A stretch of DNA of 64,000 nt from NCBI GenBank assembly GCA_029777945.1, contig JAKORG010000003.1:1-64000 (forward strand), given 5' to 3'. The stretch is from Deltaproteobacteria bacterium. GTDB lineage: Bacteria > Desulfobacterota > Syntrophorhabdia > Syntrophorhabdales > Syntrophorhabdaceae. Made by a program: the position numbers and the translations under genes. This document shows, piece by piece, positions 5,375 to 58,593 of this stretch (the first letter of the stretch is position 1; the number at the start of each line of letters is the position of its first letter). The notes under the pieces are model-generated. The model saw only the letters and a program-made list of their open reading frames with translations, did not search any database and was not told where the DNA came from.

Positions 5375-6319
5375 TTAGGCCAAAAGCTCTTTAATCATAT
5401 CTTTTATAAGGTTTATACTGTCAGGATGTCTCATAATAACGATATCTGCCCCTGCAAGGAGCATGGTCATGGCGGTTATGGCCTCAATTATAATAGACCT
5501 TGCCCTTTCGTCTCCTAATTTAGGGTCTTCATCTTTTGTAAGCCTTGTCTCTTTTATCTTCCAGACCTCTGGTGCCACATTGCATATTATAGGGTGCTGG
5601 AGTTTTGTATCCTCCTGGGTAAGGGCAGCCATCCTGTCTCTCTCCATAACAGAATAAGTATATTCGAGGCCGTAACCAAGGGCACCTGATGTGGGGTCCA
5701 TTAAAATCTTGTCATCAAGGACACCGAGGTTTCCAAGAAGGATGTTTAACTGCTTGGCAAGGTTTACATCAATAGGTGTTGATGCCATGACAACTTGATT
5801 GTAGCCAATTGCCGTTGCCCCTATCTGTTTGTAATTTTTATCAGATATAGGGCCTATTGCAATATTTTTACCCTCGCATGCCTCTGAGACCCTTTTTAAA
5901 AGAACAGCATCCTTTTCGTCATTTGCCGTGCCCCACACAATTAAGGGGCATTCAATGGCATCTGCCACATCCTTTACTACCTTGATTACTTCTTCTACAT
6001 CCCTATCCATGCCGTTTGGATCAGCACTGATTAGTTCAAGGGCAATCATTTCTGCCCCGTATACCTCAGTGCACTTTTTTGCCCATAGGACAGGGTCATG
6101 GCATACATCTTCATAGGGTTTTCTTGCCCACTCCTGCCAGTTTTTAGGTTCACAATCCCAGATCTCAAAGGCCACCCTGGGAGGATGGGGCATCTCTCCT
6201 TCAAAAGTATAAAAGGGATAACAACTCTCACCGCCTATTTTTATTGCCCTATCGCCAAACCCTAATGTAACTTCTCTGATCTTTCCAGTATATTTTATTT
6301 TTGGTATTTCAAAGGGCAT
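5375..6319 (-). CDS. acsD: Corrinoid/iron-sulfur protein small subunit
   Basis: This is the TIM-barrel small subunit of the corrinoid Fe-S protein (CFeSP), which carries the methyl group between methyl-tetrahydrofolate methyltransferase and acetyl-CoA synthase. At 314 residues it has family length (about 310-325). Recognisable AcsD/CdhD segments include PPRVAFEIWD, ADPNGMDRD, LMDPTSGALGYGLEYTYSVMERDR and a C-terminal GADIVIMRHP. AGGAGG precedes the ATG. The large, cobamide-binding AcsC subunit normally sits beside it but is absent here, so the complex must be completed by a gene elsewhere, possibly just beyond base 1. Confidence 0.94.
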   Translation of the reverse strand: MPFEIPKIKYTGKIREVTLGFGDRAIKIGGESCYPFYTFEGEMPHPPRVAFEIWDCEPKNWQEWARKPYEDVCHDPVLWAKKCTEVYGAEMIALELISADPNGMDRDVEEVIKVVKDVADAIECPLIVWGTANDEKDAVLLKRVSEACEGKNIAIGPISDKNYKQIGATAIGYNQVVMASTPIDVNLAKQLNILLGNLGVLDDKILMDPTSGALGYGLEYTYSVMERDRMAALTQEDTKLQHPIICNVAPEVWKIKETRLTKDEDPKLGDERARSIIIEAITAMTMLLAGADIVIMRHPDSINLIKDMIKELLA

Positions 6320-47766: not shown

Positions 47767-48624
47767 TTATGCAACCTCTTTTTCTTTACCTTTCCTTACT
47801 ATGGTCCTCTGTTCTTCTGGAATCGGTGGTGGAACCGGCTGACCAACTAACTTTGTGACAGCACCGAATCTCGGTGGACAGGCCTCATAGCATGTTCCGC
47901 ATTTTATACACTTGTCCTGATTTATAATATGCACCATATTTTTCTTACTGTCTATGGCCTCTACAGGGCACCTTCTTGCACAGGTCATACATGCCTGGCA
48001 CTTAGCAGGGTCAATCCAGTAGGACACAATCTCGCTGAAAAGTTTTTCAATCTCCTCTTTTGTAAAGTAGTCTTTATGGATACTCATGTCTTCATGGGGT
48101 GTTTCAAGGCGTTTTGAAAGTTTTTCGTTCATAACTACTTTTATATAAGGGATAAGTTTTATTACCTCGGCGAGTTTTTCTTTAATCTGTGAAATATCTA
48201 CGCCTTCTGACTTACCGAACGGTCCTATTTCCCTGACCTTTTTTGTAAAACTATTTACATGTTCTACAAAAAGGTTTGCCTCGGCACCGGACATAAATCT
48301 CAAGGTCAATCTCTCTGGATTTATGCCAATATACTCGAGAAGCCTTTTGCATAAAAGGACCATATTCATGGTATGGTAGTTGCCATGGGTTATGTAATTA
48401 CATTCATTTAAGTGACACGCACCAATGAATACCCCGTCCATTCCGTTTGAGAAAGCCCTGAGCACAAATTTAAGGTCAACTCTACCGGAACACATAACCC
48501 TAATGAGTCTTATTTCATTTGAATATTGCAGTCTGGAAACTCCAGCCAGGTCAGCAGCCCCGTAAGCTCACCAGTTGCAAGCGAAACCTAATATTCTTGG
48601 CTTAAATTTTAATGGTGCGCTCAT
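47767..48624 (-). CDS. bamF: Selenocysteine-containing MvhD-like electron-transfer protein (BamF-like)
   Basis: MvhD proteins carry electrons between HdrA and a partner oxidoreductase. The full gene starts at the ATG at 48624 (GGAG upstream) and reads ILGFACNW, then TGA at 48568-48570 (residue 19), then AYGAADLAGVSRLQY and IRVMCSGRVD. This is the canonical MvhD motif CNWC/UxYxGADLAG with selenocysteine in place of the second cysteine. Later parts include CHLNECNYITHGN and a C-terminal two-cluster ferredoxin (CQACMTCARRCP, CIKCGTCYEACP), giving 285 residues. A UGA-ignorant call would start at 48495 and lose the redox site. In Geobacter the BamF subunit is also described as a selenoprotein. Confidence 0.9.
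48533..48545 (-). promoter_or_regulatory. Candidate bacterial SECIS hairpin in the MvhD-like gene
   Basis: Starting 26 nt into the message counted from the U of the in-frame UGA, CUGGA-GUU-UCCAG forms a perfect 5-bp stem with a loop beginning with G. Position and loop fit the loose bacterial SECIS pattern recognised by SelB. The stem is short and may extend through a mismatch. Confidence 0.5.
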
Positions 48625-48661: not shown

Positions 48662-51600
48662 TCAGCCATTTTCGCCAACTGCCTTTAATTGCTCTACAAA
48701 AAGCTCTTCAATGGCTGCATCTATCTGGGCATCCAGCTCATCATTCGTGTAATATTTCAACTGGATTGCACCTGTTGGGCATTTTGAGTTGCAAAGCCCA
48801 TCGCCTTTACATAGGACAGGGTTTATAAATGCCTTTTTACCCTGTTTTGTGTCCCTTAACTCCAGTGCTCCATATGTGCAGACATTAACGCATGCACCAC
48901 AACCCATGCACCTCTTTTCATCGATAGTGCAAACAGAACCGGATGCTGTAACCACATCATTGGAAAGTAATGTTAAAACACGACCTGCTGCGCCATAAGA
49001 GTGGTTTATCGTCTCTTGCATGAATTTCGGGTAATGGGCAAGTCCGCACAGATATACACCATCTGTTGCAAAATCAACGGGTCTTAACTTTACATGGGCC
49101 TCTTTAAAGAAACCGTCAAGGCTTAACACTACTTTAAACTGGTTTGCAATCTCCTTTGTGGATTCTGCAGGAATTATTGCAGCAGCAAGGGATACAACAT
49201 CTGCATCAAGCTCAAGTTTCTTATTGAGTATATAGTCTGTGACTGTTACTTTGAGCACAGGTCTTCCGTCTTCTGCCTCACCTGGTTCCACAGTAGGCTT
49301 GTCTTCAGGTTCATAGCGGATAAACTTTACATCCTTTGATGCTGCCTCACGATAGTAATCTTCGTTGAAACCATATGTCCTTACATCCCTGAATAGGATA
49401 TATATATCCACATCAGGCCTTTTCTCTTTTAGCATGAGGGCATTTTTAATGGAGTGGCTACAGCAGATCCTGCTGCAGTAATTTCTATCTTCGTTTCTAC
49501 ATCCAACACATTGAATCATCACAACACTCTGGGCATTCATCACCTGATCATCTTCTTTTACTATCTTTTCTTCCAGCTCTAAATTTGTGAAAACCCTTTC
49601 GTCTTTACCGTATAGATATTCAGTTGGTTTATAAACTTCTGCACCAATGGCAATAACAGTGGCACCGTGTTTTATCTCAACAGGCCCTCTATTAGAATTA
49701 ATTTTTGTCACGAAATTTCCAATATATCCCGTGGCCTCTGTTATTGTTGCCTCTGTATATACATGGATTTGCGGATGGTTGTAAATCTTTTTTATCAAAT
49801 CTTTAAGATATGCCTGCACATCTAAGCCCTGTAAGGTTCTATAAACCCTTCTCGCATTACCACCGAGTTCTTTCTCTTTTTCTATAATAAATACCTCATG
49901 GCCCTGATTTGCAATGGATAGGGCACAATTCATACCTGCCACACCGCCACCTACTATTAGACAACGCTTATCCACAGGTAGCTCGAATTCTTGAAGTGCT
50001 TCAAGATGACATGCCCTTGCCACAGACATCCTGATCAAATCATGGGCCTTTTTTGTTGCCTCTTCCTTTTCCTTAGAATGCACCCATGAGTTGTGTTCCC
50101 TTATATTTGCCATTTCATAATAATACTGGTTGAGACCTGCTTCTCTTAATGTATCACGGAATAAGGGCTCCAGCGTCCTCGGTGAACATGCTGCAACTAC
50201 TACCCTGTTGAGACCTAACTCTTTAATCTTATCAGTTATTTCTTTTGCAGCATTTGTAGCACATGAGAAAATCTGTTCCTGTGAATATACCACATAGGGT
50301 AAGGTCTTACAGTATTCCACTGTCTCAGGCACATTTACTACCCTGCCAATATTGGCTCCACAGTGACATACAAATACACCGATCCTTGGTTCTTGCTGGG
50401 AAACATCCATTTCCGGTGGATAGATTCTCTCCTTTGCAAGGTGACCCCTTCTGTATTTAAGGAGTTCTCCAATCTGAGACCCTGCACCGCTGGCGCTAAA
50501 AACAGATTCGGGAATATCAATAGGTCCCTGCAATGCACCACTTACAAAAATACCGGGCACATTCGTCTTCATAGGATTGGTCTCGTTTAATTTGCAGAAG
50601 TTGTGGTGGTTTAATTCAATGCCAAATTTCTTCTTGAAATCTTCTACATTAACAGGTGGGTTCATGCCAACAGATAAAACCACCATATCAAACTCTTCTT
50701 CTTTGACACCATCATCAGGCGTGGAATAACGGATAGTGACATTCTTTGTAACAGGGTCCTCTTTTACTATGGAAACATAACTTCTTATAAACCTTATACC
50801 AGGCAGTGCCTCTGTCCTCTGGAAGTAACGTTCAAAATCTTTTCCATAGGATCTAATGTCATTATGGAATATTGTGCATTTTGCATCTGCATCGTGGTCT
50901 TTTGTAAGTATTACCTGTTTCTGAGTATATGTGCAGCAAACAGCAGAACAATAGCTGTTTGCACCTTCTATTACCTGTCTTGAACCTACACATTGTATCC
51001 ACGCAATATTGTGGGGGTGTTTTTTATCCGATGCACGGAGTATTTCGCCTCCATAAGGCCCTGTTGAGCATAGAAGCCTTTCATAGTCCATACTCGTTAC
51101 TACATTTTGAAATTCCCTGTAATGGTATTCTTTTAATATCCTTGGATCAAAAGGTTCAAAACCAGGGGATAAGATAATTGCACCTACCTCGATCTCGATC
51201 TTCTCTGGTTTCTGATTCAAATCTATTGCATTGTTTTTGCACACACCTTCACAGATCTTGCACTTTTTCTCTTTTAGATACAGGCAACTCTCATCAATAT
51301 ACGCAATAAGGGGAATCGCCTGGGCAAAATAGATATGCACTGCCTTATTTAGAGATATTTCCTGGTTATACTGATCAGGATACTGGACAGGGCAGTATTC
51401 AACACAGGTGGTGCAGCCTGTACATTTATCTTCTATTATATATCTGGGTTTTTTCAGGAGTGTTACATGAAAATCACCTACCTCACCCTCTACCTCATGA
51501 ACCTCGGTATAAGTGAGTACCTCTATATTTGGATGCCGGCCGACCTCGACCAGTTTAGGTGCCAGTATTCACATGGAGCAGTCATTGGTCGGAAAGGTCT

Positions 51601-51799
51601 TATCAAGCTGGGCCATATGGCCACCTATACTTGGTGCCTTCTCGACCAGATATACCTTAAAACCTGCTGTGGCGAGGTCAAGGGATGCCTGGATACCGCT
51701 TATACCTCCACCTACCACCAGGACATCTCCTAAATTGTCTTTACCGAGCATTTCTCTTAAATGTTTGATGTTGTCTGTAAGGGATATTACCTTTTCCAC
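48662..51799 (-). CDS. bamE: Selenocysteine-containing HdrA-like flavoprotein (BamE-like)
   Basis: HdrA-type FAD/Fe-S proteins split or relay electrons. The GTG start at 51799 (GAGGTG upstream) gives [18 protein letters not shown] (FAD site) and then [10 protein letters not shown] followed by TGA at 51569-51571 (residue 77). The sequence continues [20 protein letters not shown], exactly the HdrA sequence expected after TNDCxM(C/U). A ferredoxin [12 protein letters not shown] lies at residues 126-137, a CHCGANIG motif near 480, a second FAD domain ([20 protein letters not shown]) near 610-635, and a C-terminal two-cluster ferredoxin near 955-1007. The total is 1045 residues. Without UGA readthrough it would be split into 76- and 892-residue ORFs. 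Confidence 0.92.
51536..51553 (-). promoter_or_regulatory. Candidate bacterial SECIS hairpin in the HdrA-like gene
   Basis: Beginning 19 nt from the U of the UGA, CUGGUC-GAGGUC-GGCCGG forms a 6-bp stem (two G-U pairs) with a six-base loop. The AGGUC of the loop resembles the apical loop of the E. coli fdhF SECIS element. Distance and loop G fit SelB recognition. Confidence 0.6.
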
Positions 51800-51861: not shown

Positions 51862-52656
51862 TCAGTTTCTGCTAAAACCGAATCTTTCAGGATGGGAATA
51901 AACAGACAGACTTTTACCGCGCACACGACCCACAAGGGCTATACCGAGTTCGTCTGCAAGCTTAACAGCTGTCCCTGTAGGTGAATGACGGGAAACTACA
52001 ACAGGGACGCCCATCCTTGCTGCCTTTAATAGCATCTCAGAAGAAATCCTTCCTGTGCTTATAAGTACACAGTTTTCCGTAGAGATGCCATTGAACAGAC
52101 ATTCACCCAGTATTTTATCAACTGTGTTATGTCTGCCAATATCCTCAGCCACCATGATGACCTTATTTCTATCTGCAAGGGCAGATGCATGAAGGCCACC
52201 ACTTGTCACGTATAAATCCATATATTCTTGGAGTTGTTTCATAAATAACATTATCTGATTTGGGGATATTTCGAGCTCCGATTCAACCTTTTTGGCTGAT
52301 GTTACAAAGGATGGACCACCACCACAACCAGATGTAAGTCTTTTTCTTTTTGGTAAATCGAAATCCGATCTCGCAAGCCTTACATCAGCCTCTGTTTCAT
52401 CATCGCATACCCGTAACATGGCAATTTCACCAATACCAGTTATCACACCTTCTGAATATAAAAATCCGATTACAAGATAATTTAGTTTTATAGGTGTGCA
52501 CAGTATTGTTACAAAATCATTAAGGTTTACTTTAATCGTCAATTCCCTCTCAATGGGCACATGGGCCTTTGACTCAGACCATCTGTCTTCTGAAAAACGA
52601 ACACATGTCGTCTCAAAGGAGATCTCTTTTTTAGGATGTGAATCAAATCCTTCCAT
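51862..52656 (-). CDS. fdhD: FdhD-type Mo/W-cofactor sulfurtransferase
   Basis: FdhD moves sulfur from a cysteine desulfurase onto the bis-pterin Mo/W cofactor of formate dehydrogenase-type enzymes. The 264 residues have the family core TSGGLHASALAD, EDIGRHNTVDKILGECL, LISTGRISSEMLLKAARMGVPVVVSRHSPTGTAVKLADELGIALVGRVRG. In place of the E. coli C-x-x-C loop there is TSGCGGGPS, so only one cysteine is kept. It lies between the BamD-like and HdrA-like genes with gaps of 8 and 62 bases. No formate dehydrogenase is in the window, so BamB cofactor maturation is the natural target (inference). Confidence 0.9.
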   Translation of the reverse strand: MEGFDSHPKKEISFETTCVRFSEDRWSESKAHVPIERELTIKVNLNDFVTILCTPIKLNYLVIGFLYSEGVITGIGEIAMLRVCDDETEADVRLARSDFDLPKRKRLTSGCGGGPSFVTSAKKVESELEISPNQIMLFMKQLQEYMDLYVTSGGLHASALADRNKVIMVAEDIGRHNTVDKILGECLFNGISTENCVLISTGRISSEMLLKAARMGVPVVVSRHSPTGTAVKLADELGIALVGRVRGKSLSVYSHPERFGFSRN

Positions 52657-52664
52657 AGTGCCTT

Positions 52665-53819
52665 TTACGTAACTTCCTGTAAAATCTCTGTAATATCCTT
52701 AACGGTTATATCGTCTGCATGGTTTAATACGAGCCTACTATCCTCAAGGGCAGTTATGCAATAGGGACAGGCAGTTGCCAGAACCTTTGCCCCAGCATCT
52801 ATTGCCTGTTCAATCCTTATGTTTGAAAACCTTTCATGTTTTTCTGTTTCTGCCCAGACCCTTCCTCCACCCATGCCACAGCAAAGGCTTTCCTCCCTTG
52901 CCTCTGGAAGTTCAACGAGTTCCAAGCCTGCTATGCTTTTTAAGGTTTCCCTTGGTTCGTCGTATATACCGTTGTGTCTACCGAGATAACATGGATCGTG
53001 ATATGCAACCTTTTCTTCTTTAAATTCACCAGAAATCTTTAACCTTCCCTGTTTTATCAACTCATGAACATACTGGGAGACATGAATCACTTCAAAATTC
53101 ACATTAAACATGGGATATTCGTTTTTAAATGTGTGATAACAGTGTGGTGATGATACAAGGATCTTTTTGACACCATTATCAATAAATGTTTTTATGTTTT
53201 CCTTTGCAAGTTTTTTGAACAGTTCTTCGTTTCCTGTCTTGCGGATACTTTCACCACAGCAGTTCTCTTTTTCTCCGAGTATGCCAAAATCTACCTTTGC
53301 CTTATTCAGTAAATTTACCGTTGTCTGGGCAACCTTTTTAAGCCTTGGGTCATAGCTGCAGTAGCAGCACGGAAAATAGAGAATCTCCATGCCTTCTTTA
53401 AATGTCTTTACATTTAGACCTTCTGCCCATGCAGCCCTTGTCTTTCTATCCTCGTTAAAGGGATTGCCCTGTGAGGCAAGGGCAGTGCTTATTGTCCTGT
53501 AAGACTTAACTGATCCTGGATATACCCCGTAACCTGTTGCCATTCTGCGGAGCGCTACCATATCATCGATCTGTTTCACATCCCTTGGACATTTTTGAGG
53601 ACACTTACCGCACGTAGTGCAACGCCATATTTCCTCTTTTTCTATCTCACTTAAACCAAAAGTGGCTTCACGAACAAGCTTTCGCATGCTGAATTTTCTA
53701 ACCCTGTTCCAGGGACAAACGGTATCGCATTTACCGCATTGGTAGCAAAACTTGACAGCCTCTCCGCCTTTTTCCTTTACCTCATCTATAACTTCTTTAA
53801 AGGGTGCTAAAGTTTCCAC
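52665..53819 (-). CDS. bamD: Fe-S/CCG-domain oxidoreductase (BamD-like, HdrBC fusion type)
   Basis: This is an electron-transfer subunit combining HdrC- and HdrB-like parts. The 384 residues start with two 4Fe-4S motifs (CYQCGKCDTVCP at about 25-36 and CTTCGKCPQKCP at about 67-78). Two CCG domains follow (FPCCYCS...ENCCGE and HDPCYLGRHN...ESLCCGMGGG), which in HdrB bind unusual cubane clusters at the disulfide site. The start is GTG at 53819 after GAGGG. It follows bamC by 31 bases. In the class II benzoyl-CoA reductase complex this subunit links the BC catalytic unit to the HdrA-like flavoprotein. Confidence 0.9.
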   Translation of the reverse strand: METLAPFKEVIDEVKEKGGEAVKFCYQCGKCDTVCPWNRVRKFSMRKLVREATFGLSEIEKEEIWRCTTCGKCPQKCPRDVKQIDDMVALRRMATGYGVYPGSVKSYRTISTALASQGNPFNEDRKTRAAWAEGLNVKTFKEGMEILYFPCCYCSYDPRLKKVAQTTVNLLNKAKVDFGILGEKENCCGESIRKTGNEELFKKLAKENIKTFIDNGVKKILVSSPHCYHTFKNEYPMFNVNFEVIHVSQYVHELIKQGRLKISGEFKEEKVAYHDPCYLGRHNGIYDEPRETLKSIAGLELVELPEAREESLCCGMGGGRVWAETEKHERFSNIRIEQAIDAGAKVLATACPYCITALEDSRLVLNHADDITVKDITEILQEVT

Positions 53820-53850: not shown

Positions 53851-54405
53851 TTATTCTTCTTTTTGAGTCATTCTGGCAACTGTATCTAACACCTTTTCAA
53901 GACCGTATTTATCCACCATTACCTGTATACCTATGTCGAGTTCTTCCAGTTTTACCTCTTCTTCAACCTCCTCTTCCCTTTCCTCATAAGTTAATGCATC
54001 TACGAGACACCATTTCACACACATAGGTTCGTCGAGGGGTGGCTCTGTCTCGCACATATCACATTTTATAGGAAGACCTGAATCTGGCTCCTTAAAAAGG
54101 TCCCGGGAAGGACAGGCAGCACCACAGAAACTACATACGCTTTCACCGTATTCATAACCACTTTGCATCTTCTCACCAATCATGTATAGTGGTCTTCCTG
54201 CGCACTCTGCTGCTGTATAGAAGCTTCCTTTTACAGGGACAAAAACATTTTTTAATTCATTCCTGAATACCTGAATCCTTGACCTTGCAGGGTTTACGCT
54301 TGCATATTTTGGATTTGAATGAAAAGCCGCACAGGCTACCTCACATGCACGGCAACCCATACACTTGTCAAGGTCAATTTTGATTATCTTTACTTTTCTT
54401 TTCAT
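53851..54405 (-). CDS. bamC: Ferredoxin-like subunit of class II benzoyl-CoA reductase (BamC)
   Basis: BamC is the multi-cluster Fe-S protein that passes electrons to the tungsten subunit. The 184 residues contain CMGCRACEVACAAFH (residues 15-29), a SFCGAACPSRDLF block with a preceding cysteine near 91-100, and CDMCETEPPLDEPMCVKWC near 116-134, enough for about three 4Fe-4S clusters. The acidic C-terminus (EEREEEVEEEVKLEELD) is unusual and may mediate docking. It lies 14 bases after bamB, and the pair forms the catalytic BC unit. Confidence 0.92.
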   Translation of the reverse strand: MKRKVKIIKIDLDKCMGCRACEVACAAFHSNPKYASVNPARSRIQVFRNELKNVFVPVKGSFYTAAECAGRPLYMIGEKMQSGYEYGESVCSFCGAACPSRDLFKEPDSGLPIKCDMCETEPPLDEPMCVKWCLVDALTYEEREEEVEEEVKLEELDIGIQVMVDKYGLEKVLDTVARMTQKEE

Positions 54406-54419
54406 AGCGCCTTCCTCTT

Positions 54420-56387
54420 CTATTCTTCCTTATGGATTCCTCTTTTTACAAAATCCTCATAAACATAATCGAGATTGAGCTTTTGAAGCGTTTCCTTTGT
54501 GGGAACACCCCTTAAGTCCCAGCCCCTGTATTTATAATATTCATCCATGAGCTTCTGTTCGTATTCGGGGAATCTCTTCTTCCAGTGATCTTGGGGTGGC
54601 GTTTCATCTTCTCTTTTTAATCCCCTTGTGATGTTATAACTCCTTATGAGATTCCTTATGCGCAGTGCAGCATTCCACAATTTCTCTTCGTCCATGTCTA
54701 TACCTGTTCCGTAAGCCATAAAAAGCGGTAAATTATGGATATGGTAAGGTGGTTTAATGGGGAATGAAGAAACACCTGCACATAGGCCAAAGGAATCATC
54801 TATGTAATGCATGGTTTCCTGCCATTCAACGAGTTCGGCTATTAAGTCTGGAGGTGGCCAGAAAGGAAAGTTTTTGCCTTCATCGCCCCATTCAAGTATA
54901 AACTGTTTAAACCTTTCTTCTTTTCCTGTAGGGATCTGTATCCAGTCTTTTACGAACTCTTCTCTTATATGTTTTTCCATAGGCATTTGTGGAATTTGAC
55001 CTTCAATCTGGGTGATATTGACCTTTTCACCAGTAGACCACAGGATATAATAGATGGGGTTTAACATGCCGAGTTTTATAGGTACCTGCTCGTGTTTTCT
55101 TATGGTGTTGTGGTCAAATGCCTCCGCGCCCTTTCCTATCTTTCGTGCCGCCCAGTATACACCATCTGCAAGCACCTCACCAATACCTTCCCTTCTTACT
55201 ATCTTATCTAATAACCAGTGGAACCTTTCTTTTTTATCCTTTGGAAAACCAGGCATATCACTATCTGTGAGAATACCGTTTTCGTAGAGTTCTATTGCAA
55301 ATGCCATGACCTGTGGTGCTGTAAATCCATCTACTCCATAGTGTTGTGCCTTAGAAAGTATCTGGAATCCAAAGTCAAGGTCATCTACCTCGGCTGCCAT
55401 TACATAGGTAAGTTTTGTAAAGCACTTGAGAATATATGTGGGATAACCTGGTACTTCAACAATACCTGCACATCTTACAGGGCAGTTATAACAGCTTATA
55501 AGGCATTTTTTGTATGTTTCCATTGCATCTGCCCATTGTTTCTCAACCTCTTTATTCCAAAAGCCTTTTCTCCTCTTCCTTGCGTGTCCCCAGGCAAAGC
55601 TATCTAAATGCCACTGTTCATCGTGTAATGCCATTTCCTGCGGTGAACCTATATATGCAAGTATGGGTGGAACACCTGGGATGGGGTAATTGAGCCTGTA
55701 CTGGATGTAATCTAAAACCTTATTGCATTCTTCCAGGAATTCAGCAGGTTTTGCAATGTTTATGTCCTTTGTGCCTCTAACTGCTATTGCCTTTAATTTT
55801 TTATCACCCATTACGGCACCAAGCCCTAATCTACTTGAGCTTCCTCTGTGGGTTTCTACAGAGGCAAAATACACTCTATTTTCACCGGCAAGACCTATAG
55901 AAATCACCTGTGCCCTTGGTTCTTTCAATTCTGACCTTATTGCTTCTGCTGTCTCGTATGTGCTCTTTCCCTGTAAGTGTCTTGCATCCCTTATTTCCAT
56001 CTTGTCATTATTTATCCATAGATAGACCCAGTCAGGTGATTTTCCTCTAACAATAACTTTATCGTAGCCGGCATATTTTAATTCAGGAGACCAGTAGCCA
56101 CCCATCATAGAAAATCCAAATAATGAGTTCTGAGGTGAGATGGAGGTTATAATTGTGCGGTTTGCACTTGGAGCCGGTGTACTACATAGAAGCCCAGAGC
56201 TAAAGATTAACAGGTTATCTGGTGAAAATGCGTCAGTGTCTGCCGGCACCCTATCCCACATGAGTTTTGCATTTGTGCCCAACCCACCGAGATACTGCTC
56301 TGTCATTTGCGGGTCTGATTCAACCCTTTCAATGTTTCCTGTGGATAAATCCACTTCTAAATAATATCCTGTCTCTGCATATCTCAT
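54420..56387 (-). CDS. bamB: Class II benzoyl-CoA reductase tungsten subunit (BamB)
   Basis: BamB is an aldehyde:ferredoxin oxidoreductase-family protein with a tungsten bis-pterin. It reduces benzoyl-CoA to cyclohexa-1,5-diene-1-carbonyl-CoA without ATP hydrolysis. The 655-residue protein shows AOR features: GGLGTNAKLMWDRVP, SANRTIITSISPQNSLFGFSMMGG, SSRLGLGAVMGDKKLKAIAVRG, the Fe-S cysteine run CLISCYNCPVRC, and a C-terminal IDDSFGLCAG. The context (bamC, bamD, HdrA-like and MvhD-like downstream; ring-cleavage enzymes divergent) fits BamB rather than a generic AOR. AAGGGG precedes the ATG. Confidence 0.93.
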   Translation of the reverse strand: MRYAETGYYLEVDLSTGNIERVESDPQMTEQYLGGLGTNAKLMWDRVPADTDAFSPDNLLIFSSGLLCSTPAPSANRTIITSISPQNSLFGFSMMGGYWSPELKYAGYDKVIVRGKSPDWVYLWINNDKMEIRDARHLQGKSTYETAEAIRSELKEPRAQVISIGLAGENRVYFASVETHRGSSSRLGLGAVMGDKKLKAIAVRGTKDINIAKPAEFLEECNKVLDYIQYRLNYPIPGVPPILAYIGSPQEMALHDEQWHLDSFAWGHARKRRKGFWNKEVEKQWADAMETYKKCLISCYNCPVRCAGIVEVPGYPTYILKCFTKLTYVMAAEVDDLDFGFQILSKAQHYGVDGFTAPQVMAFAIELYENGILTDSDMPGFPKDKKERFHWLLDKIVRREGIGEVLADGVYWAARKIGKGAEAFDHNTIRKHEQVPIKLGMLNPIYYILWSTGEKVNITQIEGQIPQMPMEKHIREEFVKDWIQIPTGKEERFKQFILEWGDEGKNFPFWPPPDLIAELVEWQETMHYIDDSFGLCAGVSSFPIKPPYHIHNLPLFMAYGTGIDMDEEKLWNAALRIRNLIRSYNITRGLKREDETPPQDHWKKRFPEYEQKLMDEYYKYRGWDLRGVPTKETLQKLNLDYVYEDFVKRGIHKEE

Positions 56388-57480: not shown

Positions 57481-58593
57481 ATGGGAGAAGTACCAAAAAC
57501 AATCAAGCAGTGGCAGATGATTCAGCCTACAACATTTAATAAAGAGACAAAGGAGAAGATACCTGGAAAACTCGAGTTGGCAGAAATACCTGTCCCTGAA
57601 CTAAAGGAAGGCGAAGTCTTGGTTGAGATTGCAGGCTGCGGTGTATGCCATACAGACCTCGGCTACTTTTATGATGGTGTCCCAACAGTAAGTAAACCGC
57701 CCCTTGCACTGGGCCATGAGATAGCCGGAACAGTTGTAGCAGGAGATCCAGCATGGATAGGCAAAGAGGTAATAATCCCTGCTGTTATGCCCTGTAGAAA
57801 ATGTATACTCTGCAAGACAGGCAGGGGTAACAGATGTCTTGCCCAGAAGATGCCAGGGAATTCCATTGGTGTCTACGGTGGGTTTGCAAGCCATATACCT
57901 GTACCTACAATAGATTTATGTTTAGTTCCTTCTGACAAAAAGGGTTTTGCCCTTGAACAGCTTGCCGTGGTTGCAGATGCTGTGACAACACCGTATCAGG
58001 CAGCAAAAAGGGCAGATTTACAGCCTGGAGACAATGTTGTAATTATAGGTGCCACAGGTGGTGTGGGTGTATATATGGTGCAGATGGCAAAGGCCCTCGG
58101 TGCAAAAACAGTTATAGGTATTGCAAGAAACATGGAAAAACTCCAGAGAGCCCTCAAATATGGCTGTGATGCAGTAATTAGCACCCTGGACAAAGATAAT
58201 AAGGCCATAGTAGGTGAATGGAGGAATTTCTGCAAATCCAATGGTATAGATACAGCAGGCTGGAAGATTTTTGAAGTAACAGGCACAAAGGCAGGACAGG
58301 ATCTTGCCCTTGATCTCCTCTCATTTGTAGGAAAACTCATCCTTGTCGGTTTCGGTATGTCAAAGAGCGAGTATATGTTCTCAAAACTTATGGCATTCGA
58401 TGCAGAGATTATAGGCACATGGGGATGTCTGCCTGAGTATTATCCTATTGTGCTCGATATGGTGCTTTTAAAACGTATTCAGATTGAGCCTTTTGTTGAG
58501 GTAAGACCAATGAGCACAATTGCTGCAACTTTTGAAGAGATACACAAAGCAGGTTCTCCTGCGAAAAGGGTAGTATTAAAACCAGATTTTTAA
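57481..58593 (+). CDS. had: 6-Hydroxycyclohex-1-ene-1-carbonyl-CoA dehydrogenase
   Basis: This zinc-type medium-chain dehydrogenase oxidises the hydrated benzoyl-CoA derivative to 6-oxocyclohex-1-ene-1-carbonyl-CoA with NAD. The 370 residues contain the catalytic zinc region GCGVCHTDLGYFYDG and GHEIAGTVV, structural zinc cysteines in CRKCILCKTGRGNRC, and the Rossmann motif VIIGATGGVGVYMVQMAKALGA. Placement directly upstream of the ring hydrolase matches the known had-oah pair (BamQ in Geobacter). AAGGAGG precedes the ATG. A general alcohol dehydrogenase is the only serious alternative and the context argues against it. Confidence 0.93.
   Translation: MGEVPKTIKQWQMIQPTTFNKETKEKIPGKLELAEIPVPELKEGEVLVEIAGCGVCHTDLGYFYDGVPTVSKPPLALGHEIAGTVVAGDPAWIGKEVIIPAVMPCRKCILCKTGRGNRCLAQKMPGNSIGVYGGFASHIPVPTIDLCLVPSDKKGFALEQLAVVADAVTTPYQAAKRADLQPGDNVVIIGATGGVGVYMVQMAKALGAKTVIGIARNMEKLQRALKYGCDAVISTLDKDNKAIVGEWRNFCKSNGIDTAGWKIFEVTGTKAGQDLALDLLSFVGKLILVGFGMSKSEYMFSKLMAFDAEIIGTWGCLPEYYPIVLDMVLLKRIQIEPFVEVRPMSTIAATFEEIHKAGSPAKRVVLKPDF

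Follow-up and report, generated by a model that had tools for sequence, protein, structure and literature searches.

Does the UGA codon that interrupts an mvhD-like reading frame in an unstudied Syntrophorhabdaceae-like bacterium end translation, or is it read as selenocysteine (Sec)? The codon lies on the minus strand of the 64,000-nucleotide stretch of DNA that was analysed (hereafter, the window; Table 1), in a gene that we name bamF. This gene very probably encodes a selenoprotein that serves a class II (tungsten) benzoyl-CoA reductase complex as its electron-transfer subunit of MvhD/FlpD type. The reading is based on the position of the UGA, homology, conservation of the SECIS element, presence of the Sec machinery and the bam context, Sec incorporation itself being deduced from these.

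Table 1. Coordinates of the features discussed in the text (window positions, except for selD; Sec and SECIS assignments are predictions).
Feature	Position	Strand	Evidence or remarks
bamF (mvhD/flpD-type), 285 aa including one Sec (U19)	47767–48624	−	PF02662, 8.6e-47; Fer4 domains; PDB 5odc_D, 1e-39
FlpD domain, then C-terminal 2x[4Fe-4S] ferredoxin domain	bamF product, FlpD at residues 11–134		
bamF start, ATG	48622–48624	−	Shine-Dalgarno-like AAGGAG upstream; same start position in most relatives
In-frame UGA of bamF, Sec codon, second position of CxxU	48568–48570	−	MvhD alignment; TGA in 80/80 relatives
SECIS stem-loop of bamF, CUGGA-GUU-UCCAG	48533–48545	−	Synonymous-site freezing; stem-pair counts
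bamE (hdrA-type), from GTG, with readthrough of an internal UGA	48662–51799	−	HdrA profile NF040770, 9.6e-283, below curated cut-off
In-frame UGA of bamE, Sec codon, DCSM-U-ILAPKL	51569–51571	−	Own conserved hairpin; 56 TGA-type sequences
fdhD, Mo/W-cofactor sulfurtransferase	51862–52656	−	TIGR00129, 179.8 bits (cut-off 140.9)
bamD, HdrC/HdrB-like, CCG domains	52665–53819	−	PF02754, 9.6e-36
bamC, 4Fe-4S protein	53851–54405	−	Family searches; position adjoining bamB
bamB, tungsten benzoyl-CoA reductase catalytic subunit	54420–56387	−	PDB 4z3w_A, 973 bits, E 4.4e-292, whole length
Ring-pathway dehydrogenase	57481–58593	+	TIGR03201, 455.6 bits (cut-off 338.65)
selD copies	G000:C60:31575-32492 (L016); G000:C81:13062-13979 (L017)		One with in-frame TGA, the other without

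Reading frame and protein family of BamF

From the ATG at 48624, the minus-strand frame reads MSAPLKFKPRILGFACNW-UGA(48570–48568)-AYGAADLAGVSRLQY and contains this single in-frame UGA; the corresponding DNA is AAGGAG...ATGAGCGCACCATTAAAATTT...TTCGCTTGCAACTGG TGA GCTTACGGG. With the UGA translated as Sec, the product starts with MSAPLKFKPRILGFACNWUAYGAADLAGVSRLQYSNEIRLIRVMCSGRVD and has 285 residues, the stop codon ending at 47767. Open reading frame finding with translation table 11 returns a product of 242 aa from 48495, which begins within the second conserved motif, MCSGR, and lacks 43 codons, including the redox motif, that relatives retain. A true stop at the UGA, followed by synthesis of a shorter protein devoid of the CNWC/U motif from the ATG at 48495, would correspond exactly to this 242-aa frame. 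It is nevertheless very improbable, since the upstream codons are conserved as protein in relatives, homology to MvhD starts at residue 6, a Shine-Dalgarno-like site precedes 48624, and a start at 48495 would cut into the conserved MCSGR. The 48495 start is an artefact, and a standard gene caller would mis-annotate bamF. The initial annotation had proposed that a second in-frame UGA, read from the ATG at 48624, restores a CNWU motif, and that the apparent start at 48495 discards the active site. Both the frame and the codon position were confirmed, as was the loss of the redox motif with the 43 upstream codons, and no homologue devoid of these codons was found among the full-length relatives.

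The PF02662 (FlpD/MvhD) domain was recognized in BamF with 158.6 bits (gathering threshold 22.3), and the MvhD protein of PDB 5odc aligned over residues 6–142 (E 1e-39), with its CNWC opposite CNWU. The UGA of bamF thus occupies the position of the second Cys of CNWC in MvhD from solved Mvh-Hdr complexes, in agreement with the alignment to a conserved redox Cys anticipated in the initial annotation, and the other core cysteines (C16, C45, C70, and C75) are retained. Homology to solved MvhD settles the predicted fold of BamF.

Conservation of the UGA codon across relatives

The 80 best matches to the BamF query, retrieved from GTDB data with one genome per species and spanning several phyla, all carry TGA at the Sec codon (80/80, all from other genomes), a set that leaves out distant Cys-type members by design because it consists of best matches only. 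Variation around the codon includes CNF-U in place of CNW-U (L062) and, in a separate search, CDT-U (L110). In a phylum-wide search, each of the first 51 matches contained one internal TGA, and Cys-type homologues began at about 55–59% identity and lower; the nearest relatives, 89–90% identical, belong to MAGs named Deltaproteobacteria and Syntrophorhabdaceae. On the tree, a single branch separates 120 UGA-type sequences from 31 Cys-type sequences. If the TGA were in truth a TGC or TGT altered by pseudogenization or by sequencing error, a single base change in a draft assembly of 102 contigs would suffice, but the identical TGA in 80 other assemblies and an otherwise intact and conserved frame make this extremely unlikely, and the comparative data refute it.

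Several individual sequences deserve comment. L135, the one close match without internal stop, was discarded as an exception: its assembly shows a gap (NN) in place of the motif, and its hairpin is preserved. The FlpD homologue L174 (genome G240) has Cys at CNWC, and UGA occupies one of the conserved Cys positions farther along (GG-U-QLGEC), possibly a second Sec site in the FlpD family. In L074, from an Anaerolineae MAG, a second TGA near position 6054 stands where the SECIS stem otherwise has a Gly codon (MS-U-VSR), being either an error or a second UGA within the hairpin. Finally, L048, on a contig labelled Bathyarchaeota, contains a bacterial-type bam cluster whose bamF is of the UGA type and falls among those of Chloroflexota; a binning error may be the cause.

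A stem-loop with frozen codons follows the UGA

Downstream of the UGA, the minus strand reads CTGGA (48545–48541), GTT, and TCCAG (48537–48533), which can form a stem of 5 bp with a GUU loop located 27 nt past the UGA. The bSECIS model demands a G in the first two positions of the apical loop, a loop of 3–9 nt, a stem of 4–16 bp and a distance of 16–37 nt from the UGA (PMC13188914). The bamF hairpin satisfies these rules for loop, stem, and spacing.

Codon-by-codon comparison of the 120 UGA-type and 31 Cys-type sequences revealed that codons +24 to +36 are nearly fixed in the former, where GCT (98%), GGA (93%), GTT (92%), TCC (100%, 120/120) and AGA (94%) encode the respective conserved residue, whereas the same five codons are spread in the Cys set (n = 31). 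Synonymous entropy over this segment amounts to 0–0.5 bit in the Sec set, compared with 1.8–2.4 bits in the Cys set and with 1.2–1.9 bits for codons of conserved Arg, Ser, Gly, and Val residues elsewhere in the Sec-set genes; at other invariant Arg positions of UGA-type genes, the commonest codon reaches 62% and 58%. Each of the five stem pairs is formed in 113–120 of the 120 UGA-type sequences but in 6–23 of the 31 Cys-type sequences. Moreover, the +26/+36 pair underwent a compensatory change from T-A to G-C in two separate lineages (L050 and L192) that lie apart in the tree, and in a GGC-GTG subset the stem is one pair shorter and the loop larger. The conservation of the UGA, together with synonymous-site freezing confined to UGA-type genes, is far beyond chance. 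The CUGGA/UCCAG hairpin pointed out in the initial annotation is present, and the search for a SECIS downstream of 48568 that it had suggested led to an element with fitting geometry and frozen codons.

The folding energy of the 59-nt stretch falls within chance (z = −0.16); the isolated 13–18 nt hairpin folds with −4.0 to −5.3 kcal/mol and a 47-nt segment with −10.7, the bSECIS cut-off being at most −7.5. No SECIS match was obtained in an Rfam search, a result whose bearing depends on Rfam's coverage of bacterial SECIS elements; a sub-threshold match to the 2dG-I riboswitch was taken as chance. This unexceptional folding energy, as well as the conservation of the amino acids LAGVSR, would be compatible with a hairpin conserved for another reason and a UGA at which a near-cognate tRNA inserts, for instance, Trp. 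However, protein constraint fails to explain the freezing, because Cys-type homologues with a nearly identical peptide use free codons. The freezing tracks the UGA, and BamE shows this coupling as well. Near-cognate readthrough is very improbable. BamF is, on sequence grounds, very probably a selenoprotein produced by ordinary SelB/SECIS decoding. The contrast between frozen codons in Sec genes and free codons in Cys homologues provides clean comparative evidence of SECIS function in the FlpD/MvhD family. Because the SECIS core (GCTGGAGTTTCCAGA) hardly varies, it offers a simple marker for truncated bamF/mvhD genes in other genomes.

A second UGA-containing gene and the bam cluster

The neighbouring bamE contains its own in-frame UGA, owing to which the 892-aa open reading frame starting at 51340 lacks about 150 codons of the gene. 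The UGA is accompanied by a stem-loop, CUGGUCG-AGGU-CGGCCGG, that is likewise frozen in TGA-type sequences (GTC 56/56, GAG 56/56, CGG 54/56). Chance is untenable as an explanation for two UGA genes side by side that both possess a conserved hairpin of their own.

In the order of transcription, bamF is preceded by genes encoding BamB, BamC, BamD, FdhD, and the HdrA-type BamE. These neighbours (BamB, BamC, BamD, and FdhD), together with the ring-pathway dehydrogenase, identify the locus as a bam benzoyl-CoA reductase cluster, that is, an anaerobic benzoate cluster. The label "BamF-like" of the initial annotation was well chosen, as the gene shares its cluster with a true BamB. No bamGHI genes adjoin bamF in the 64-kb window, where a GNAT gene comes next; five Complex1_51K genes occur elsewhere in the genome. 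Since bamGHI are not in the cluster, our claim concerns a BamF-type subunit and not the whole Geobacter complex.

Selenocysteine machinery and proposed role of BamF

Genes selA, selB, selC, and selD are all present in the assembly, each above its family cut-off, and the tRNA-Sec scored 69.9 bits, with anticodon tca according to ARAGORN; absence of selB or selC, which the initial annotation had considered contrary to its proposal, does not apply. Near the selD copy without TGA, a 1342-aa open frame (L102) includes a Cys-type FlpD domain.

In bacteria, SelB-dependent decoding at a local SECIS is an established process. In the proposed mechanism, SelB loaded with Sec-tRNA(Sec) would bind the stem-loop in the mRNA under translation, and selenocysteine would be inserted at the UGA, so that the redox site of the MvhD domain would read CNWU. 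Sec-containing BamF would then work beside a second selenoprotein, the HdrA-type BamE. By analogy, BamF may link BamE to a further redox partner in electron transfer, and Sec may tune its CNWU redox centre. It is also conceivable, although we regard it as rather doubtful, that in this syntrophic lineage a Bam complex with adjacent Sec-BamE and Sec-BamF and no local BamGHI uses its Sec centres to pass electrons to a different, unlinked partner. Extending bamF to 48624 puts right the annotation of a key redox subunit in a bacterium that probably degrades aromatic compounds anaerobically.

Comparison with known systems

In MvhD of the methanogen Mvh hydrogenase-heterodisulfide reductase (5odc), Cys occupies the position of the Sec codon of bamF, and the partner is a hydrogenase, whereas BamF is found in a benzoyl-CoA reductase setting. 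Within the FrhD/MvhD/VhuD family of bacteria and methanogens, Sec-FrhD and Sec-HdrA were described in Deltaproteobacteria in 2006, with FrhD in Geobacter metallireducens and four proteins of each type in Syntrophus aciditrophicus (PMC1794560), and a 2026 review lists FrhD/MvhD/VhuD as CxxU selenoproteins (PMC13188914). The initial annotation likewise took it as known that MvhD/BamF-type proteins can carry Sec at the second Cys. BamF shares with these proteins, found in Syntrophobacter, Syntrophus, G. metallireducens, and others (PMC1794560; PMC13188914), the PF02662 domain, the CxxU position, and an adjacent Sec-HdrA; it differs from them in its additional C-terminal 2x[4Fe-4S] ferredoxin domain, its location in a bam cluster, and its host.

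Regarding class II benzoyl-CoA reductases, a Sec-BamE (with Sec UGA and SECIS) and a Sec-MvhD have been annotated in Desulfococcus multivorans (PMC5109826), and bamF of G. metallireducens was annotated as a hydrogenase delta subunit (PMC1924859); the FrhD entry for this species (PMC1794560) suggests that Geobacter BamF contains Sec as well. The gene order bamB-C-D-(fdhD)-E-F is shared with both organisms, but here fdhD is inserted between bamD and bamE, and the bamGHI genes that belong to the bam cluster in G. metallireducens are not adjacent within the window. BamF is thus a well-supported new example of a known Sec family, whose selenium versions have been known since the 2000s.
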